From Tahibacter soli (GTDB lineage Bacteria > Pseudomonadota > Gammaproteobacteria > Xanthomonadales > Rhodanobacteraceae), in contig NZ_JAOVZO020000020.1 in the NCBI RefSeq assembly GCF_025717065.2, positions 186,001 to 250,000 of the forward strand: 64,000 nucleotides of DNA. Reading direction: 5' to 3'. The position numbers and the translations under genes are program-made. Positions 43,031-53,572 of this stretch are shown piece by piece. The notes beneath the pieces were generated by a model. That model searched no databases. It worked only from the letters and a program-made list of their open reading frames with translations, and was not told where the DNA came from. Numbering within the stretch: position 1 is the first letter of the stretch; each line of letters begins with the position of its first letter.

Positions 43031-46000
43031 ATGAAGCGTATGTTGATCAACGCAACTCAGCGTGAGGAGTTGCGTGTGGCCATCGTCGACGGCCAGTCGC
43101 TGTTCGACCTCGATATCGAGATTCCGTCGAAGGAACAGAAAAAGGCCAACATCTACAAGGGCCGCATCACCCGCGTCGAACCTTCGCTGGAAGCCTGCTT
43201 CGTCGAATACGGCGGCGAGCGCCACGGCTTCCTCCCGCTCAAGGAAATCGCGCGCGAATTCTTCACCCCGGGCGTCGACCACAATCGCGCCGGCATCCGC
43301 GAACTGCTCAAGGAAGGCCAGGACGTCATCGTCCAGGTCGAAAAAGAAGAGCGCGGCAACAAGGGCGCGGCGCTGACGACGTTCATCTCGCTCGCCGGCC
43401 GCTACATGGTGCTGATGCCGAACAACCCGCGCGCCGGCGGCGTGTCGCGCCGCATCGAAGGCGAAGACCGCGCGAACCTCAAAGAGGTGCTCGACCACCT
43501 GAAGTGCCCGGACGACATGGGCCTCATCATCCGCACCGCCGGCATGGGCCGCGACGCGGAAGAACTGCAGTGGGACCTCGACTATCTCCTGCAGCTGTGG
43601 AAGGCGATCTCGGAAGCCGCGACCTCGCGCCCGGGACCGTTCCTGATCTACCAGGAATCGAAACTCATCATCCGCGCGCTGCGCGACTACCTGCGCAACG
43701 ACATCGGCGAAATCCTCATCGACCACGAGGATCTCTACTCCGACGCGCGCGACTTCATGCAGCAGGTGATGCCGAACAACCTGCGCAAGCTCAAGCTCTA
43801 CCGCGACACGACGCCGCTGTTCTCGCGCTTCCAGATCGAAACGCAGATCGAAAACGCGTTCGAGCGCAACGTGCGTCTGCCGTCGGGCGGCTCGATCGTG
43901 ATCGACCAGACCGAAGCGCTGACCGCGATCGACATCAACTCGGCGAAAGCGACGAAGGGCGGCGACATCGAGGAAACCGCGTTCAACACGAACCGCGAGG
44001 CGGCGATCGAGATCGCGCGCCAGCTGCGCATTCGCGACGCCGGCGGCCTGATCGTCATCGACTTCATCGACATGGACAGCCCCAAGCACCAGCGCGAAGT
44101 CGAGGAAACGCTCAAGGACGCGCTCAAGCTCGACCGCGCGCGCGTGCAGCTCGGCCGCATTTCGCGCTTCGGCCTCATGGAAATGTCGCGCCAGCGCCTG
44201 CGCCCGAGCCTGGGCGAATCGACCCAGATCGTCTGCCCGCGCTGCACCGGCCACGGCCGCATCCGCAGCGTCGAGTCGCTGTCGCTGTCCGCGCTGCGCC
44301 TCGTCGAAGAACACGCGATGAAGGACAACACCGGCCAGGTGCTGGTGCAGGCGCCCTCGACGGTCGCCAACTACCTGCTCAACGAAAAGCGCCGCCAGGT
44401 CAGCGAGATCGAACAGCGTCACGACGTGGCGGTGATCATCGTCGCCGACGAGAAGCTCGAAACGCCGCATCTTGAAATCCAGCGCCTGAAGGCCGCCGAC
44501 ATCGGCGACAACCAGCGGCCGAGCTACGACCGCCTGACGCCGATCGTCACGACGCCGCCGCCGCAGGTGGCGCAGCCGAGCGCCGAACCGGAACGGCCGG
44601 CCGTGAGCCGCGTCGTGCCGGCGAGCCCGGCGCCGCTGCGTCCCGAATCCGAGCAGGACGACGACGAAGCGCCGAAGCCGGCAGCGGCGCCGCGCAAGGC
44701 CGCGGCGACGGCGCCGCGCGCTCCTGCGCCGGGCTTCTTCGAACGCATGTTGTCGTGGTTCCGCAAGCCGGCGCACCCGCCGGTCGCGGCGCCGCAGCCC
44801 GCCAAGCCCGAGCCCCGCCCGGCCGGCGGTGGCCGCAACGAACAGCGCGACCAGCGCGGTCGTCCGGGCCGCGACGGCCGCGGCGATCGCGACAACCGTG
44901 GCCGCGACCAGCAGCGCGGCGGTCGCGACGGCAAGCCGCGCGACGATGCGCAGAAACCGCGCGACGGCGCGCAGCAGCAGGGCAAGCCGCAGCAGCAACA
45001 GCGCCCGCCGCAGGAACCGCGTCCGCCGAAGCCCGAACGCCCGCAGTCCGAGCGTCGCCCGCAAGGCGACAAGCCGCAGACCGACAAGCCGCAGGGCGAG
45101 CAGCGCCAGCCGCGTCCGGATCGCCAGGGCGAGCCGCGCGGCGACCAGCGCATGACGACCCCGCCGCCGCCGTCCGCCGAACGTCCGGCGAAGCCGACGC
45201 CGGTACCGCCGTCCGCCGCGCCGGTCGCACCGGCGGCCGCCGCCGAAACGGCACCGGTCGCAAAGATTCCGGGCACCGATGCCGGTGCCATCGCCGCAGC
45301 CGCCGATGCGAGCGTCGCCGCCGCGAAGCCGGCCGTGCCGGCAACGAGCACCGACGGTGCGCCGGTCACCGATGAGGCGCGCGAAGGCAGCCGTCGTCGC
45401 CGCGGTCGTCGCGGCGGCCGCCGCCGTCGCCGCAACGAGGGCGGTGTCGAATCCGCCGACGGCGTGAACGCCGATCTCGATATCGATTTCGACGACGAGG
45501 AAGGCGAAGGCGACAACGACGCGGCGAGCGGCGGCAAGCCCGCGCAGACGGCCGCAGCGCCGAAGCCGGTTGAAGCCGTGACGCCGGCCGCGCCGAAGCC
45601 GGTCGAGGCCGCGACGCCGGCCGCTGCGCCGGTCGCACCGAAGCCGGTCGAGGCCGTGACGCCGGCCGCTGCGCCGATCGCGCCGAAGCCGGTTGAAGCC
45701 GCTACGCCGGTCGCCGCGCCGATCGCGCCGAAGCCGGTTGAAGCCGCGACGCCGGTCGCCGCGCCGGTCGCACCGAAGCCGGTCGAGGCCGCGACGCCGG
45801 TCGCCGCGCCGATCGCGCCGAAGCCGGTCGAGACCGCGACGCCGGCCGCTGCGCCGGTCGCACCGAAGCCGGTCGAGGCCGCGACGCCGGTCGCGCCGAA
45901 GCCGGTCGAAGCCGCGACGCCGGCCGCCGCGCCGATCGCCCCGAAGCCGGTCGAAGCCGCGACGCCGGCCGCCGCGCCGATCGCGCCGAAGCCGGTCGAA

Positions 46001-46684
46001 GCCGTGACGCCGGTCGCTGCGCCGGTCGCCTCGAAGCCGGTCGAAGCCGCGACGCCGGCCGCCGCGCCGATCGCGCCGAAGCCGGCCGAAGCCGCGACGC
46101 CGGCCGCCGCGCCGATCGCCCCGAAGCCGGTCGAAGCCGCGACGCCGGCCGCTGCGCCGATCGCACCGAAGCCGGTCGAAGCCGCGACGCCGGTCGCTGC
46201 GCCAATCGCGCCGAAGCCGGTCGAAGCCGTGACGCCGGTCGCTGCGCCAATCGCGCCGAAGCCGGTCGAAGCCGCGACGCCGGTCGCTGCGCCGAAGCCC
46301 GTCGAAGCCGCGACGCCGGTCGCTGCGCCGATCGCGCCGAAGCCGGTCGAAGCCGCGACGCCGGAACCGAAGCCGTCCGACGCCGCCGAATCGCGCGGTC
46401 CGACCGCAAGTCAGCTCTCGTTGACGATGCCGGAACCGAAGCCCGCGCCGGCCGCTGCGCCGTCTCCGACGGTCCAGGCGCCGGCCGCCGCGCCGACGCC
46501 GGCCGCCAAGCCGGTGTCCGCGCCGATCGAAAACTTCGAGGCGCCGCCGCACGGCACGAGCATCCGCCAGGCCGTGCATTCGGCGCTGCACACGCCGCCC
46601 GCAACGCCGGTGCCGGCCGAGAAGCCGGCAGCGAAGCCCGAGGCCGACGCGCCGCCGGCACCGACCGACGGCGAGCCGAAGTAA
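43031..46684 (+). CDS. rne: ribonuclease E
   Basis: A 1217-residue protein beginning [20 protein letters not shown], essentially the canonical RNase E start. The S1 domain ([33 protein letters not shown]), the DNase I-like catalytic domain with its two metal aspartates ([31 protein letters not shown]) and the zinc link (CPRCTGHG) are intact. The C-terminal half is a disordered scaffold: an Arg/Gln/Pro-rich stretch, an [22 protein letters not shown]-binding patch, then ~19 tandem [15 protein letters not shown] repeats, and finally ~100 residues of Pro/Ala tail. It is the main endonuclease of mRNA turnover and tRNA/rRNA maturation. Confidence 0.96.
45561..46372 (+). repeat. 45-bp minisatellite inside rne
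   Basis: About nineteen tandem units, most of 45 bp encoding a 15-residue [15 protein letters not shown] unit, with a few shortened to 30-36 bp. Variation between units is mostly Ala/Val and Val/Ile swaps plus synonymous changes. All units are multiples of three and keep the frame. The array lies in the disordered scaffold of RNase E and is likely to vary in copy number between strains. Exact boundaries are approximate. Confidence 0.85.
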
Positions 46685-47713: not shown

Positions 47714-47930
47714 AAGGCAACAAGATTTGCCAGGAGCGAGCGTACGGTACGGCGCAGTCCTCAACCAAATCCACGGTCGCATAGGGCGCGCATGGAGCGG
47801 CGACGATCACTGCGTTATCCTTGCCAGCTGCTGCGGAGCGCAGATTCAGGTTCCGGCGAATGCCAACTCGCTGTAGTCGTGCGATTCGCTAGCATTGGTC
47901 GAGCGCGACGCGTGCAGATGCGGTTGCAAC

Positions 47931-48001
47931 GGAGAGATGGCCGAGCGGTTTAAGGCAGCAGTCTTGGGACTGCCGTGGGTTCATGCCCACCGTGGGTTCG
48001 A
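47931..48001 (+). pseudogene. truncated tRNA-Ser copy 1 (no 3' part, damaged anticodon loop)
   Basis: GGAGAGATGGCCGAGCGGTT onward equals the 5' 72 nt of the intact tRNA-Ser at 48340, ending in the T-loop at TTCGA. The acceptor 3' strand, half of the T-stem and CCA are missing. The anticodon loop is CTTGGG, one base shorter than the intact CTTGAAA. It cannot fold into a complete tRNA. Confidence 0.85.
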
Positions 48002-48134
48002 TTGATTCGTCGGGAAAGAATCAAGACGGCCGCAGGGCCGGCCCCTCGCGCAGCGAGGGGTGAGGCCCAGGGATGGGCCGAACAATCCCACCGGCAACGG
48101 TTGCGTCGAGTTCGAAAGCGGATGCGGTTACAAC

Positions 48135-48206
48135 GGAGAGATGGCCGAGCGGTTTAAGGCAGCAGTCTTGAAAACTGCCGTGGGTTCATGCCCACCGTGG
48201 GTTCGA
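48135..48206 (+). pseudogene. truncated tRNA-Ser copy 2
   Basis: Identical over 72 nt to the 5' portion of the intact gene, including the UGA anticodon loop and the long variable arm. It breaks at the same T-loop position as copy 1 and continues into the hairpin TTGATTCGT-CGGGA-ACGAATCAA. Without the 3' acceptor strand it is not a functional tRNA. Confidence 0.87.
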
Positions 48207-48339
48207 TTGATTCGTCGGGAACGAATCAAGACGGCCGCAGGGCCGGCCCCTCGCGCAGCGAGGGGTGAGGCCCAGGGATGGGCCGAACAATCCCACCGGC
48301 AACGGTTGCGTCGAGTTCGAAAGCGGATGCGGTTACAAC

Positions 48340-48429
48340 GGAGAGATGGCCGAGCGGTTTAAGGCAGCAGTCTTGAAAACTGCCGTGGGTTCATGCCCAC
48401 CGTGGGTTCGAATCCCACTCTCTCCGCCA
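48340..48429 (+). tRNA. tRNA-Ser(UGA)
   Basis: Intact 90-nt class II tRNA. The acceptor GGAGAGA pairs with TCTCTCC, followed by the discriminator G and an encoded CCA (48427-48429). D-loop GCCGAGCGGTTTAAGGC, anticodon loop CTTGAAA with anticodon TGA at 48374-48376, long variable arm GTGGGTTCATGCCCACC, T-arm CGTGGGTTCGAATCCCAC. The UGA anticodon reads UCA and other UCN codons. It is preceded by two truncated copies. Confidence 0.96.
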
Positions 48430-51035: not shown

Positions 51036-51072
51036 TTACAGCTGTAACTTCATACAGTCCTTACAGCTGTAA
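51036..51072. promoter_or_regulatory. twin 12-bp palindromic operators upstream of the GTPase cluster
   Basis: TTACAGCTGTAA occurs at 51036-51047 and again at 51061-51072. Both copies are perfect palindromes, followed by C, with centres 25 bp apart. The spacer contains an extra ACAG half-site. Two identical operators just upstream of the candidate promoter suggest cooperative binding of a dimeric regulator. I do not recognise the site as that of a known regulator. Confidence 0.65.
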
Positions 51073-51082
51073 CGTACACTCC

Positions 51083-51111
51083 TGTACAAGTTTTTTTTGC
51101 GATGATAGATT
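51083..51111 (+). promoter_or_regulatory. candidate promoter of the GTPase/roadblock operon
   Basis: TGTACA (51083-51088, 4/6 to the -35) and TAGATT (51106-51111, 4/6 to the -10) are 17 bp apart, with a T8 run in the spacer. The -35 box is half of a GTACA-CTCC-TGTAC inverted repeat (51074-51087) that abuts the second 12-bp palindrome. An alternative reading is that this hairpin plus T8 is a weak terminator for the KTSC gene. The leader to the ATG at 51247 is about 130 nt. Confidence 0.45.
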
Positions 51112-51246: not shown

Positions 51247-52179
51247 ATGCAAAAACGGAAAATCGCCGTGGTCGGCCTCGGCGACGATGCAACTCACGCG
51301 TTCCAGTCGATGCTCAAAATCCTCGACGGACGAGCCGCCGCTGCGTGGGAACTGTCTACACCGGAACGGGCCGAAGTGCTGATGGCCGGCGCCCATTCCA
51401 ACGAACCGGCAATCGCGCATTGGGCGCGCACCGACAAGCCGATGATCGCCGTCTACGAGGGCGGCTCGGTCCGACCCGTCGGCACGCATACGCTGTGTCA
51501 TCCGTTTCGCGTGATGCAACTGCTCGGCGTGCTCGACGACATCGAACGCGCGCTCGTGACGCCTGTGCGCACAGCGCCGCCGGTCGAGCAGTTGCACCCG
51601 GGCTGGGCATTCGCCGAATCGCTGCGACGCCTCACGCGCTGCACCGCGACGGGCCGGCTGTACGCGAGCGCCAGCGCGTTCGGAACGCTGTTCGTCAAGG
51701 ACGACCTCTCGGCCTACTTCATCGGCGCGGATCTATGGCCGCAGTTCACGCAGCGCCACGTCGAACTGTCGGCGCTGGAAGGCACGGCCGAGCGGGCGCC
51801 GGAAGGCCACGCGCGCCGGCCGGTACTGGAACTGGCGTGGTTCAGCGGCCTGAACGGGCCTGCCGGCCTCGCACCGTGGCTCGATCGCCGCGCCGGCCAC
51901 CGCCTGCGCCGTTGGCCGGATTTCGGCCTCGTGCGCGGCACGCGCGACCAGTTGGCGCTGTCGGCGGCGTTGTCGCAAAACGCACTCACGCTCGAACAGC
52001 TCGCGCAGACGACGCGACAGCCGCAAGCGCAGGTCGAGCGGTTTCTCAACGCCTGCTCCATGGCGGGCATCCTCGCGAGCGCGATCGACGCGACGGCGCC
52101 GGCGCCGGTCGCTCCGCCGCCGTCGCGTTTCGGCAATCTGATACGCGGACTGCGCCAGCGCCTGGGATTGTCCGAATGA
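51247..52179 (+). CDS. unknown protein of the GTPase cluster, Rossmann-like N-terminus and possible winged-helix C-terminus
   Basis: A 310-residue protein from ATG 51247. The N-terminal ~100 residues (KIAVVGLGDDATHAFQSMLK, PERAEVLMAGAHS, TDKPMIAVYEGGSVRPVGTH) look like an alpha/beta receiver-type fold, but a full phospho-acceptor set is not evident. The C-terminal part (LALSAALSQNALTLEQLAQT TRQPQAQVERFLNACSMAGI) looks like a winged helix. A DUF742-type winged helix protein (CvnC) occupies the corresponding place in actinobacterial conservons; the similarity here is by pattern only. The stop overlaps the GTPase start (ATGA). It may be an effector or regulator of the GTPase. Confidence 0.7.
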   Translation: MQKRKIAVVGLGDDATHAFQSMLKILDGRAAAAWELSTPERAEVLMAGAHSNEPAIAHWARTDKPMIAVYEGGSVRPVGTHTLCHPFRVMQLLGVLDDIERALVTPVRTAPPVEQLHPGWAFAESLRRLTRCTATGRLYASASAFGTLFVKDDLSAYFIGADLWPQFTQRHVELSALEGTAERAPEGHARRPVLELAWFSGLNGPAGLAPWLDRRAGHRLRRWPDFGLVRGTRDQLALSAALSQNALTLEQLAQTTRQPQAQVERFLNACSMAGILASAIDATAPAPVAPPPSRFGNLIRGLRQRLGLSE

Positions 52180-52733
52180 GCGGCGCCGACAGCGAATTCA
52201 AAATCGTCTTCACCGGGCCGATGGGCGTCGGCAAGACGACCGCGATCGCGGCAATCAGCGACGAAGCGCCGGTGTCGACCGACGTGTTCAACACCGACCG
52301 CGAAGCCTTCGACAAGGCGCTCACGACCGCCGGTCTCGACTACGGCCACATCGCACTCGACGACGGCACCGCGGTGCGCCTGTACGGAACGCCGGGCCAG
52401 GCGCGCTTCCGCTTCATGTGGGACATCCTGGGCCTGAACGCGGCCGGGGTGATCGTATTGATCGATGCGTCGCAGTCGGACGCGCTCGTCCAGCTCGATC
52501 ACTTCGTCGACGCGTTCGGCAGCGGCAAACGTACGCCGATCGTGATCGGCGTCGGCCGTCTCGATCACGCCGGCGCGCCGCCGCTCGACGCGTTCTCGCA
52601 GCGGCTGGAAACGCGCGGCCTGACGCTGCCGGTGTTCGGCGTCGACGTGCGCCGCCGGCCCGACGTGCTGCTGCTGGTCGACACCCTCCTGTGCCTCATC
52701 GAAACCGCCGACCCGACGAGACTCACCGCATGA
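52176..52733 (+). CDS. Arf/CvnD-like small GTPase (SR1/MglA-related)
   Basis: A 185-residue P-loop protein. Walker A is GPMGVGKTT (residues 14-22). The G3 region is VRLYGTPGQARFRFMWDILG, the GTPGQxRFxFMW form typical of the bacterial GTPases of conservons (CvnD, COG2229). The G2 threonine candidate lies in TTAGLDYGHIALDD. The G4 box NKxD is degenerate (GVGRLDHAG), keeping Asp but not Asn-Lys, so guanine specificity may be relaxed. The gene overlaps both neighbours by ATGA. Expected to switch between GTP and GDP states with roadblock proteins as regulators. Confidence 0.87.
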   Translation: MSGADSEFKIVFTGPMGVGKTTAIAAISDEAPVSTDVFNTDREAFDKALTTAGLDYGHIALDDGTAVRLYGTPGQARFRFMWDILGLNAAGVIVLIDASQSDALVQLDHFVDAFGSGKRTPIVIGVGRLDHAGAPPLDAFSQRLETRGLTLPVFGVDVRRRPDVLLLVDTLLCLIETADPTRLTA

Positions 52734-53134
52734 GCGCAGCGCCGCGTTTCGGAAAAGTCGCCACCGGAGTGGCGCAGAAGCAGCTCGAAGCCTTCGGCCA
52801 GTCGACGCCCGGCGTCGTCTCGGCGGTGCTGCTGTCCGCCGACGGGTTCGAAGTCGCTTCGCTGCAGGTCGGCAAGAGCGGCGCCGAACGGCTCGCGGCG
52901 ATGGGCAGCTCGCTCGGCGCGATCGGCTCTGCTATCGCCAAGGAAGCCGGCATCGTCGAATGCAATCGCATGATCATCGAGGCCGACAGCGGCACGGTCG
53001 TGATCATGCACGTGCCCGACGCGAAACCGCCGATGTCGCTCGCAATCGTCGCGAACGGCGCGTCGGTGCTCGGGCAGCTCCTGTGGGCCGCGCGCAACTG
53101 CTGCAGCGCAATCGGACGTGCCTTTCGCGAATAG
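52730..53134 (+). CDS. roadblock/LC7-like protein 1
   Basis: A 134-residue protein overlapping the GTPase stop (ATGA). SAVLLSADGFEVASLQVGKS GAERLAAMGSSLGAIGSAIA is the roadblock signature (V-x-x-A-x-L-x-S-x-D-G-F-x-V, then an Ala/Gly-rich helix). MIIEADSGTVVIMHVPD then supplies the second strand pair. Roadblock proteins such as MglB and CvnB act as GAPs or scaffolds for bacterial Ras-like GTPases. Confidence 0.82.
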   Translation: MSAAPRFGKVATGVAQKQLEAFGQSTPGVVSAVLLSADGFEVASLQVGKSGAERLAAMGSSLGAIGSAIAKEAGIVECNRMIIEADSGTVVIMHVPDAKPPMSLAIVANGASVLGQLLWAARNCCSAIGRAFRE

Positions 53135-53212
53135 AACGAGCCCGGGCGTCGCACCGCGCCCGGGTTCGCGCAGCATCGACCGGTGCGCCGTTTCCTACGA
53201 AGGAGAAGTCCC

Positions 53213-53572
53213 GTGGCCAATATCAACGAAAGCCTTGCGAACCTGCTGCAGGCCGACGGCGCGCTGTGCGCGGCGCTCGTCGACGCGAACAGCGGCATGA
53301 CGCTCGGACGCATCGGCAGCGGTCTGGATCTCGATCTCGCGGCGGCCGGCAATACCGAGGTCGTACGCGCGAAGATGAAGACGATGAAGAGCCTCGGGCT
53401 CGCCGACAGCATCGAAGACATCCTCATCACGCTCGGCAAGCAATATCACATCATTCGCCCGATCGCCGCCAAGCCGGGATTGTTCCTTTATCTCGTTCTG
53501 GACAAGGCGAAATCGAATCTCGCGCTCGCGCGGCGCAACTGTCAGGACGCCGAGGCGTCGCTGGTCGTCTGA
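53213..53572 (+). CDS. roadblock/LC7-like protein 2
   Basis: A 119-residue protein from GTG 53213 with a strong AAGGAGAAG ribosome-binding site; 78 bp separate it from roadblock 1. INESLANLLQADGALCAALV DANSGMTLGRIGSGLDLDLA is a roadblock-like start. EDILITLGKQYHIIRPIA and LFLYLVLDKAKSNLALARR follow the same fold. It is diverged from roadblock 1, so the two may form a heterodimer or act at different steps. The strong separate ribosome-binding site suggests it is made in excess. Confidence 0.8.
   Translation: MANINESLANLLQADGALCAALVDANSGMTLGRIGSGLDLDLAAAGNTEVVRAKMKTMKSLGLADSIEDILITLGKQYHIIRPIAAKPGLFLYLVLDKAKSNLALARRNCQDAEASLVV

Follow-up and report, generated by a model that had tools for sequence, protein, structure and literature searches.

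A four-gene locus at positions 51247-53572 of a 64,000-nucleotide stretch of the Tahibacter soli genome (hereafter the window, on contig C20 of a 6.65-Mb assembly) raises the question of what kind of switch a small GTPase (G) forms with a multi-domain protein (A) encoded before it and two putative roadblock proteins (RB1 and RB2) encoded after it. An earlier sequence-only reading had placed the four genes at these positions as a conservon-like module lacking the sensor kinase, with an unknown regulator, a CvnD-type GTPase and two roadblock proteins, and had named no described proteobacterial system with this set. The placement is correct to the base, and no kinase is encoded among the four genes. 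The set itself was catalogued in 2014 as Group 3 of the MglA family (PMC4316618); in the features tested here the operon fits a Group 3 MglA-type system, a kind known since that year and little studied. At the level of sequence, this analysis adds the presence of three modules in one genome, the loss of the phospho-acceptor from the receiver-like domain of A, a basic amphipathic tail on A and a BLUF domain in the A slot of Agarilytica. The features of the operon are as follows.

51247..52179, + strand: gene A, 310 amino acids; receiver-like N-terminus, middle alpha/beta region, winged helix and C-terminal amphipathic helix (sequence and AlphaFold model)
51247..51558, + strand: receiver-like (pseudo-receiver) domain of A, residues 1-104 (AlphaFold model and column counts)
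51901..52083, + strand: LRRWPDFG motif and winged-helix region of A, about residues 219-279 (conservation, model and weak helix-turn-helix (HTH) matches)
52126..52161, + strand: C-terminal basic amphipathic helix of A, residues 294-305, predicted membrane tether (model; hydrophobic moment and charge across the family)
52176..52733, + strand: gene G, small GTPase of the MglA family (Group 3 type), 185 amino acids (open reading frame (ORF), Pfam, motifs and tree)
52215..52241, + strand: G1 box GPMGVGKTT of G (motif alignment)
52383..52409, + strand: G3 box YGTPGQARF of G, residues 70-78 (motif alignment)
52554..52565, + strand: degenerate G4 box GRLD of G, without N/T and with Arg for Lys (motif alignment)
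52644..52652, + strand: G5 box DVR of G, the DxR form of Groups 2 and 3 (motif alignment)
52730..53134, + strand: gene RB1, roadblock/LC7 protein of 134 amino acids, predicted GTPase-activating protein (GAP) with invariant D38-G39 (Pfam Robl_LC7, PDB relative, D-G pair)
53200..53205, + strand: ribosome-binding site AAGGAG of RB2 (sequence)
53213..53572, + strand: gene RB2, 119 amino acids, GTG start, divergent, predicted roadblock fold (AlphaFold topology; co-occurrence with the GTPase)

Assignment to Group 3

As previously described, two ATGA overlaps join the first three genes: the start of G lies within the stop of A (52176-52179) and the start of RB1 within the stop of G (52730-52733). A gap of 78 bp separates RB1 from RB2, the GTG start of which follows 7 nt after its own AAGGAG.

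Wuichet and Sogaard-Andersen sorted the GTPases of the MglA family into five groups in 2014 (PMC4316618). Group 3 is described there as nearly restricted to the beta- and gamma-proteobacteria, its operons comprising an unknown protein, the GTPase and one or two roadblocks. Group 3 GTPases have GTPGQ in G3, a G4 box often devoid of Lys, an arginine in G5 and, by definition, no arginine beside the conserved threonine of G2; the combination of a degenerate G4 with a DxR G5 is common to Groups 2 and 3, and the D-G pair of the roadblocks is a feature of Groups 2-5. A receiver-like N-terminus and a winged-helix C-terminus were predicted by Phyre2 for the unknown protein (PMC4316618).

The operon of the window agrees with this description. 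G, which reads GTPGQARFRFMW, has the G3 box YGTPGQARF, a G2 box (APVSTDV) with no arginine next to the conserved threonine, GRLD without Lys in place of [NT]KxD at G4, and DVR at G5; the GTPGQ form and the degenerate G4 had both been recognised from the sequence beforehand. An unknown protein, the GTPase and roadblocks are all present, the second roadblock by predicted fold only, and A combines a receiver-like N-terminus with a winged-helix C-terminus according to the elements of its AlphaFold model and the wide profile A5. The marks of Group 1 are absent, with GTPGQ instead of TVPGQ and, at G2, VSTDV (motif alignment) without the intrinsic arginine finger. The described Group 3 systems (PMC4316618; Snodgrassella, PMC11112851) have the same gene content, GTPase motifs and taxonomic range, and a first protein of the same domain layout. 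The window departs from them in four points: neither the phospho-acceptor nor the Lys of the receiver signature is kept in A, G4 begins with G where T is found in the others, RB2 lies beyond the reach of Pfam and one genome holds three modules.

The Snodgrassella work concerns a Group 3 mgl locus and reports that motile flares appeared on soft agar when an orphan mglB was altered, an effect on spreading that was interpreted as dependent upon type IV pili (PMC11112851). No further publication was recognised as treating a Group 3 system in the literature searched, most subscription papers being outside its reach, and none of the 10 best of 31 literature matches described BLUF together with such a system.

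Motifs and phylogeny of the GTPase

Many GTPase rows sampled over the class keep T-[RKQH]-x-[DE] at G4; in the clade of the window G stands for T, and the final Asp is frequently lost too. A loss of guanine specificity is not claimed from this, since CvnD9, a Group 2 protein with a deviating G4, possesses GTPase activity (PMC4316618).

In a tree of 31 rows, the window GTPase and 19 proteobacterial rows (20 in total) were separated by a branch of 98/98 support from the remaining 11, comprising 8 from Actinomycetota and 3 from Deinococcota. The tree held 14 class rows; the long rows of Comamonas, Agarilytica and the third GTPase of the same genome were left out, and the Group 3 reference sequences of PMC4316618 were absent from it. 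G therefore does not branch with CvnD as its earlier naming implied. Forcing the four-row clade of the window together with Actinomycetota cost 14.6 log units, with an approximately unbiased test value (p-AU) of 0.0528 and long branches flagged there by the program, so that a union with CvnD is disfavoured and narrowly escapes formal rejection. When a larger tree was built, the Comamonas GTPase, a row even longer than that of Agarilytica, was placed close to the clade of the window, the wider group having a support of 69/92. One of the 19 proteobacterial companions is a piece from Neisseria gonorrhoeae; in that record (L097 2902-3540) the Group 3-type GTPase gene is split over two frames, either a broken gene or a sequencing error.

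Protein A

The AlphaFold model of A, made from a 48-row alignment, had a mean predicted local distance difference test score (pLDDT) of 88.3. Residues 1-104 show an alternation of strands and helices that, on our reading of the model elements, corresponds to a receiver lacking helices 2 and 4. They are followed by a middle alpha/beta part, a winged helix at 233-279 (helices 233-244, 249-256 and 260-272, strand 276-279), a less confidently modelled linker and a final helix at 294-305. W223 and P224 are invariant in alignment A1, which represents the window's own clade, and nearly invariant in A5; Pfam gave weak HTH matches for the region. A1 used 47 of 68 matches, and alignment A2 (not to be confused with gene A2 below) 40 of the best 120 of 7950 matches plus 8 loci. 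Column counts cover 29 A5 rows out of the 32 that remain when the window is set aside; the BLUF row and both further A proteins of the same genome were not counted.

Searched against PDB, profile A5 matched two solved response regulators below E 0.001, namely 8svz_A (7.9e-6) and FleR 7w9h (6.9e-4); response regulators made up the greater part of the 53 chains returned up to E 10. These matches therefore lend independent support to the Phyre2 receiver reading. Of the comparisons proposed beforehand for A, that with receivers gave these matches for the wide profile and none for the narrow profile A1; A is probably a multi-domain regulator with a receiver-like and a winged-helix part. The comparison with DUF742 gave a weak lead, with an hhalign probability of 19% (see below).

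At the phospho-acceptor position, the end of strand 3, the window has G48. Among the 29 wider relatives this column contains D in 21 and N in 8; in the 48 rows of A1 it contains D in none, G in 29 and E in one. In strand 5 the conserved P is preceded by K in 21 of the 29 wider relatives and by H in 44 of the 48 A1 rows (H85-P86 in the window). Since the acceptor column of A1 is without D and the strand-5 K is mostly replaced by H, the clade of the window is read as carrying a pseudo-receiver.

The last helix of A was assessed by a tail mark, a hydrophobic moment of at least 0.5 with a net charge of at least +2, which was set after sight of the tails. It was passed by 45 of 48 A1 rows, 27 of 32 A5 rows and two of three proteins in the same slot in Deinococcota (Thermus/Deinococcus); elsewhere in the module it was passed by none of 49 RB2 and none of 19 G C-termini, yet by 8 of 17, about half, of those of RB1. 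We take the tail to resemble the membrane-targeting helices of FtsA or MinD.

Compared pairwise with DUF742, the C-terminal profile of A yielded P 0.0012 over 72 columns (hhalign probability 19%), and with the Deinococcota proteins of the same slot P 0.0006 over 45 columns (probability 28%), against P values of 0.15-0.42 for three unrelated controls.

Roadblock proteins

RB1 matched Pfam Robl_LC7 with E 1.1e-7 and 31.9 bits against a cut-off of 23, and carries the D-G pair as D38-G39. Among solved structures it comes nearest to Rv3364c (9hef, E 2.5e-6), presumably MfpD, with CvnB5 at E 0.22. For RB2 and 48 relatives, no Robl_LC7 match was obtained from Pfam, six other families appearing at E 0.05-0.25 only, and RB2 matched no PDB chain up to E 10. 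RB1 and RB2 were rejected as alignable homologues (hhalign probability 0.4). The AlphaFold model of RB2 has the topology alpha-beta-beta-alpha-beta-beta-beta-alpha at a mean pLDDT of 83.6, and some of its relatives are labelled Roadblock/LC7 by their source annotation. RB2 is hence predicted to be a divergent protein of roadblock fold; as its alignment with RB1 fails, the fold and the source names are what speak for it. The earlier count of two roadblock proteins accordingly holds for RB1 and is less well founded for RB2, which has the topology but no Robl_LC7 match.

Conservation, paralogous modules and distribution

The closest named relatives of the window proteins belong to Tahibacter, Dokdonella and other Rhodanobacteraceae, and next to Alcanivorax. 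A survey of gene neighbourhoods had been proposed with the sequence-only reading. When the A alignment was used to search named genomes, 19 loci were returned and all 19 showed the order A-G-RB1-RB2, so the module is no chance arrangement. Across these loci RB2 is in most the best kept relative to the window (75-87% identity) and A the least (30-52%). No neighbour was common to the Tahibacter-type and Alcanivorax loci among the 25 rows listed, antisense frames of the module aside, and neighbouring genes were for this reason rejected as a hint to function.

A family-level set of 29 loci, five of them from genomes of the named set and thus not independent (by coordinates L025, L026, L027, L029 and L030 correspond to L004, L006, L005, L007 and L021), contained 16 in the order of the window, one as RB1-RB2-A-G, one as RB1-A-G, two as A-G for which the search detected no roadblock, and nine in which an A-like match had no detected GTPase in its vicinity. 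Such A-like proteins lie at L043 1462-2631 and L046 1462-2601 (minus strand), and both keep the receiver DxD and K-P; we take the neighbours of the former to be gltX- and accD-like and that of the latter to be gltX-like.

A sample of 274 genomes across the class contained 46 with the GTPase (E 1e-12 or lower). At 29 of these 46 (30 loci fetched, one being the window's own), searched at E 0.1 or lower with profiles built for this analysis, A adjoined the GTPase in 27, RB1 was nearby in 26 and an RB2-like protein in 9, of which 7 were weak. RB2 proper occurs in 12 of the 274 genomes, and the GTPase accompanies it in 11 of them (Fisher p 1e-8; the exception is G345).

Including that of the window, the genome carries three such modules. 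A second complete operon, A2-G2-RB1-RB2, lies at C20:640k; A and A2 bear little resemblance to each other, with 29% identity in a C-terminal alignment of 142 columns (hhalign E 5e-11). In the third, at C18:1133k, RB1, RB2 and A run in one direction and the GTPase in the opposite one (L085 4400-8005), and a lone further RB2 gene is located at C18:996k (L086 2983-3336), about 140 kb away. On a Comamonas plasmid the order A-G-RB1-RB2 matches that of the window, and the A protein is short. Two GTPases occur together at some loci, flanking A on each side in L075 and L080 and adjacent in L083, possibly as a GTPase pair.

BLUF version and association with type IV pili

Plasmid pSU2 of Agarilytica rhodophyticola carries, in this order, RB2, a BLUF protein, the GTPase and a roadblock (RB1). 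The BLUF protein has the Pfam BLUF domain at residues 1-95 (8.1e-23) followed by the WPDF region and basic tail of A, and its match to the A profile is short (36 positions, E 7e-6). The RB2 of this plasmid is close (E 1e-56) and its GTPase distant. A protein database queried with the C-terminal part alone returned only two BLUF-WPDF proteins, that of Agarilytica and P0190 (44% identity, E 1.6e-22; BLUF by precomputed Pfam). By sequence, a BLUF blue-light domain thus takes the place of the receiver-like half of A in the same operon slot in Agarilytica.

A PilP match was present in 45 of the 46 GTPase-positive genomes and in 179 of the 228 others (Fisher p 0.0007), an association uncorrected for kinship, with G469 as the genome having the GTPase and no PilP match. 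Together with the Snodgrassella result, this association points towards type IV pili.

Proposed mechanism

We consider it somewhat probable that, in this Group 3 MglA-type system, A serves as input, exchange factor and membrane tether, G as the switch and RB1 and RB2 as GAP. A would take an input signal and set the nucleotide state of G at the membrane, to which it may be tethered by the C-terminal basic amphipathic helix. In analogy to the DUF742 protein found in conservons, its winged helix would act on G as a guanine nucleotide exchange factor (GEF); RB1 and RB2 together would likely accelerate GTP hydrolysis by G, in analogy to MfpD and MglB. The output, the least certain part, would likely be a surface behaviour dependent upon type IV pili.

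These roles are proposed because of the DUF742 slot, the roles of MfpC and MfpD and the P values of the A C-terminal profile. The gene for DUF742, which we take to be a winged-helix protein, lay directly before the GTPase gene in all nine conservons fetched, and this is the slot in which the window encodes the winged helix of A. For MfpC, the mycobacterial homologue of CvnC, the role of GEF has been reported as likely, and for the roadblock MfpD that of GAP (PMC13343842). A is best read as the input because its front half can be a photosensor and its gene overlaps that of the GTPase. Since the receiver-like domain is without a phospho-acceptor, the input to A of the window would be protein binding or a conformational cue and not phosphorylation.

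Besides the late setting of the tail mark, its occurrence on RB1 and the limits of the PilP association, a number of results weigh against this account. The narrow profile A1 matched no PDB chain up to E 10, and Pfam Response_reg was matched by only one of 33 A5 members, at E 0.19. The DUF742 likeness of the A C-terminus is a weak lead that may reflect generic winged-helix similarity. Nothing recognised as pointing to pili was found in the flanks. A-like proteins can occur alone, given that at 9 of the 29 family-level loci an A-like match had no GTPase found nearby. In the larger tree, the very long Agarilytica row fell with Actinomycetota/Deinococcota (96/91) and not with the window, and the third GTPase of the Tahibacter genome leaned weakly the same way with L045 (81/48). 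Finally, the winged HTH of the Group 3 unknown protein was read by the 2014 authors as a DNA-binding output (PMC4316618), and the two palindromes described below would fit A as an autoregulator.

Alternative explanations

A polarity module of the Myxococcus xanthus type, with A in the part of RomR, RB1 and RB2 in those of MglB and MglC, and the choice of pole for pili as output, is conceivable but rather unlikely. A receiver-like protein accompanied by two roadblocks, the PilP association, the Snodgrassella phenotype (PMC11112851) and the naming of RomR/RomX as GEF of MglA (PMC9481161) are what one would expect of it, and the Myxococcus MglA/MglB/MglC/RomR set (Group 1) works in a like manner, through a GTPase, a roadblock GAP and a receiver-domain partner. 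The Group 1 motifs (TVPGQ, Arg in G2) are, however, absent from G, and Group 1 mglA is not located near its response-regulator partners (PMC4316618).

In the reading of the 2014 authors, A would be a DNA-binding transcription factor resembling a response regulator and modulated by the GTPase and roadblocks. We regard this with similar doubt. Of the two features upstream of A listed here, the palindromes would be its operator.

51036..51072 (51036-51047 and 51061-51072), + strand: two perfect palindromes TTACAGCTGTAA, candidate operator (only two exact copies in the 6.65-Mb assembly)
51081..51111, + strand: block CCTGTACAAG-T8-GCGATGATAGATT, possible promoter (by-eye likeness upstream of A in four named relatives, L004-L007)

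Exactly two copies of TTACAGCTGTAA occur in the 6.65 Mb, both upstream of A, where about 0.035 would be expected from the base composition of the window; its letters read backwards occur once in the genome. The transcription-factor alternative keeps its weight because of these palindromes, and the receiver-like and winged HTH layout of A (model, A5 profile) and HTH-type Pfam matches in scattered relatives of A are in keeping with it. Yet TTACAGCTGTAA was found in none of 13 other upstream stretches, that of the paralogous operon included, nor at any examined locus beyond that of the window; as a family-wide operator it was therefore rejected, being species-specific at most. Moreover, the conserved residues of the winged HTH read as more hydrophobic or small (FLNAC) than basic, and most A proteins bear the basic amphipathic tail. 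The CCTGTACAAG-T8-GCGATGATAGATT block was not called by a consensus promoter scan.

That the module is a proteobacterial conservon (Group 2) which lost its kinase and DUF742 protein is very improbable, and membership was rejected: the degenerate G4 and DxR G5 common to Groups 2 and 3 (PMC4316618), the mycobacterial nearest PDB relative of RB1 and the weak DUF742-like signal in A are outweighed by zero DUF742 matches at E 0.001 or lower in the whole genome, an operon without a kinase and a GTPase that branches with proteobacterial, not actinobacterial, sequences.

Comparison with other GTPase systems

Actinobacterial conservons/AGPS (CvnA-D; Mfp) share with the window a roadblock and a GTPase with degenerate G4 and DxR G5. 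They have a kinase and a small DUF742 protein encoded just upstream of the GTPase, whereas the window has neither, joins input and winged helix in one protein and has its GTPase in another branch. Operons of Deinococcota (Thermus oshimai and two Deinococcus) likewise encode, directly before the GTPase, one protein that combines an input-type front with an HTH-like region and a basic tail; they differ in a DUF4388/PATAN front, a single roadblock and a GTPase in another branch. In the scan for DUF4388/PATAN, which covered T. oshimai and D. radiophilus and not D. gobiensis, only the Thermus protein exceeded the Pfam cut-off, that of D. radiophilus reaching E 0.07.

Extending the preferred account of A as input, exchange factor and tether to Group 3 at large is a tentative step that we would not yet expect to hold. 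Group 3 might then be a proteobacterial counterpart of receptor-G-protein signalling, in which a tethered protein with a swappable input (receiver-like, BLUF, or PATAN in Thermus) has a winged helix as exchange factor and a basic amphipathic anchor, and a roadblock pair acts as GAP. Agarilytica and at least one other bacterium would possess a blue-light-driven Ras-like switch, and the Tahibacter/Alcanivorax branch a phosphorylation-independent receiver. With the GTPase family present in 46 of 274 genomes of the class, the exchange of domains and the conserved tail provide testable statements on the signal that A detects, its place in the cell and a possible loading of the GTPase by its winged helix; in the BLUF-fitted module light could drive the switch.

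Other features of the window

A 205-bp unit is repeated in tandem at 47917-48411 (2.4 copies, 98% alike). Its last copy carries the only tRNA-Ser(tga) called here, at 48340-48429, part of which the earlier copies apparently repeat. About 18 copies of a 45-bp repeat, coding for a protein repeat, lie at 45582-46364 inside the ORF 43031-46684, the product of which we take to be RNase E-like.

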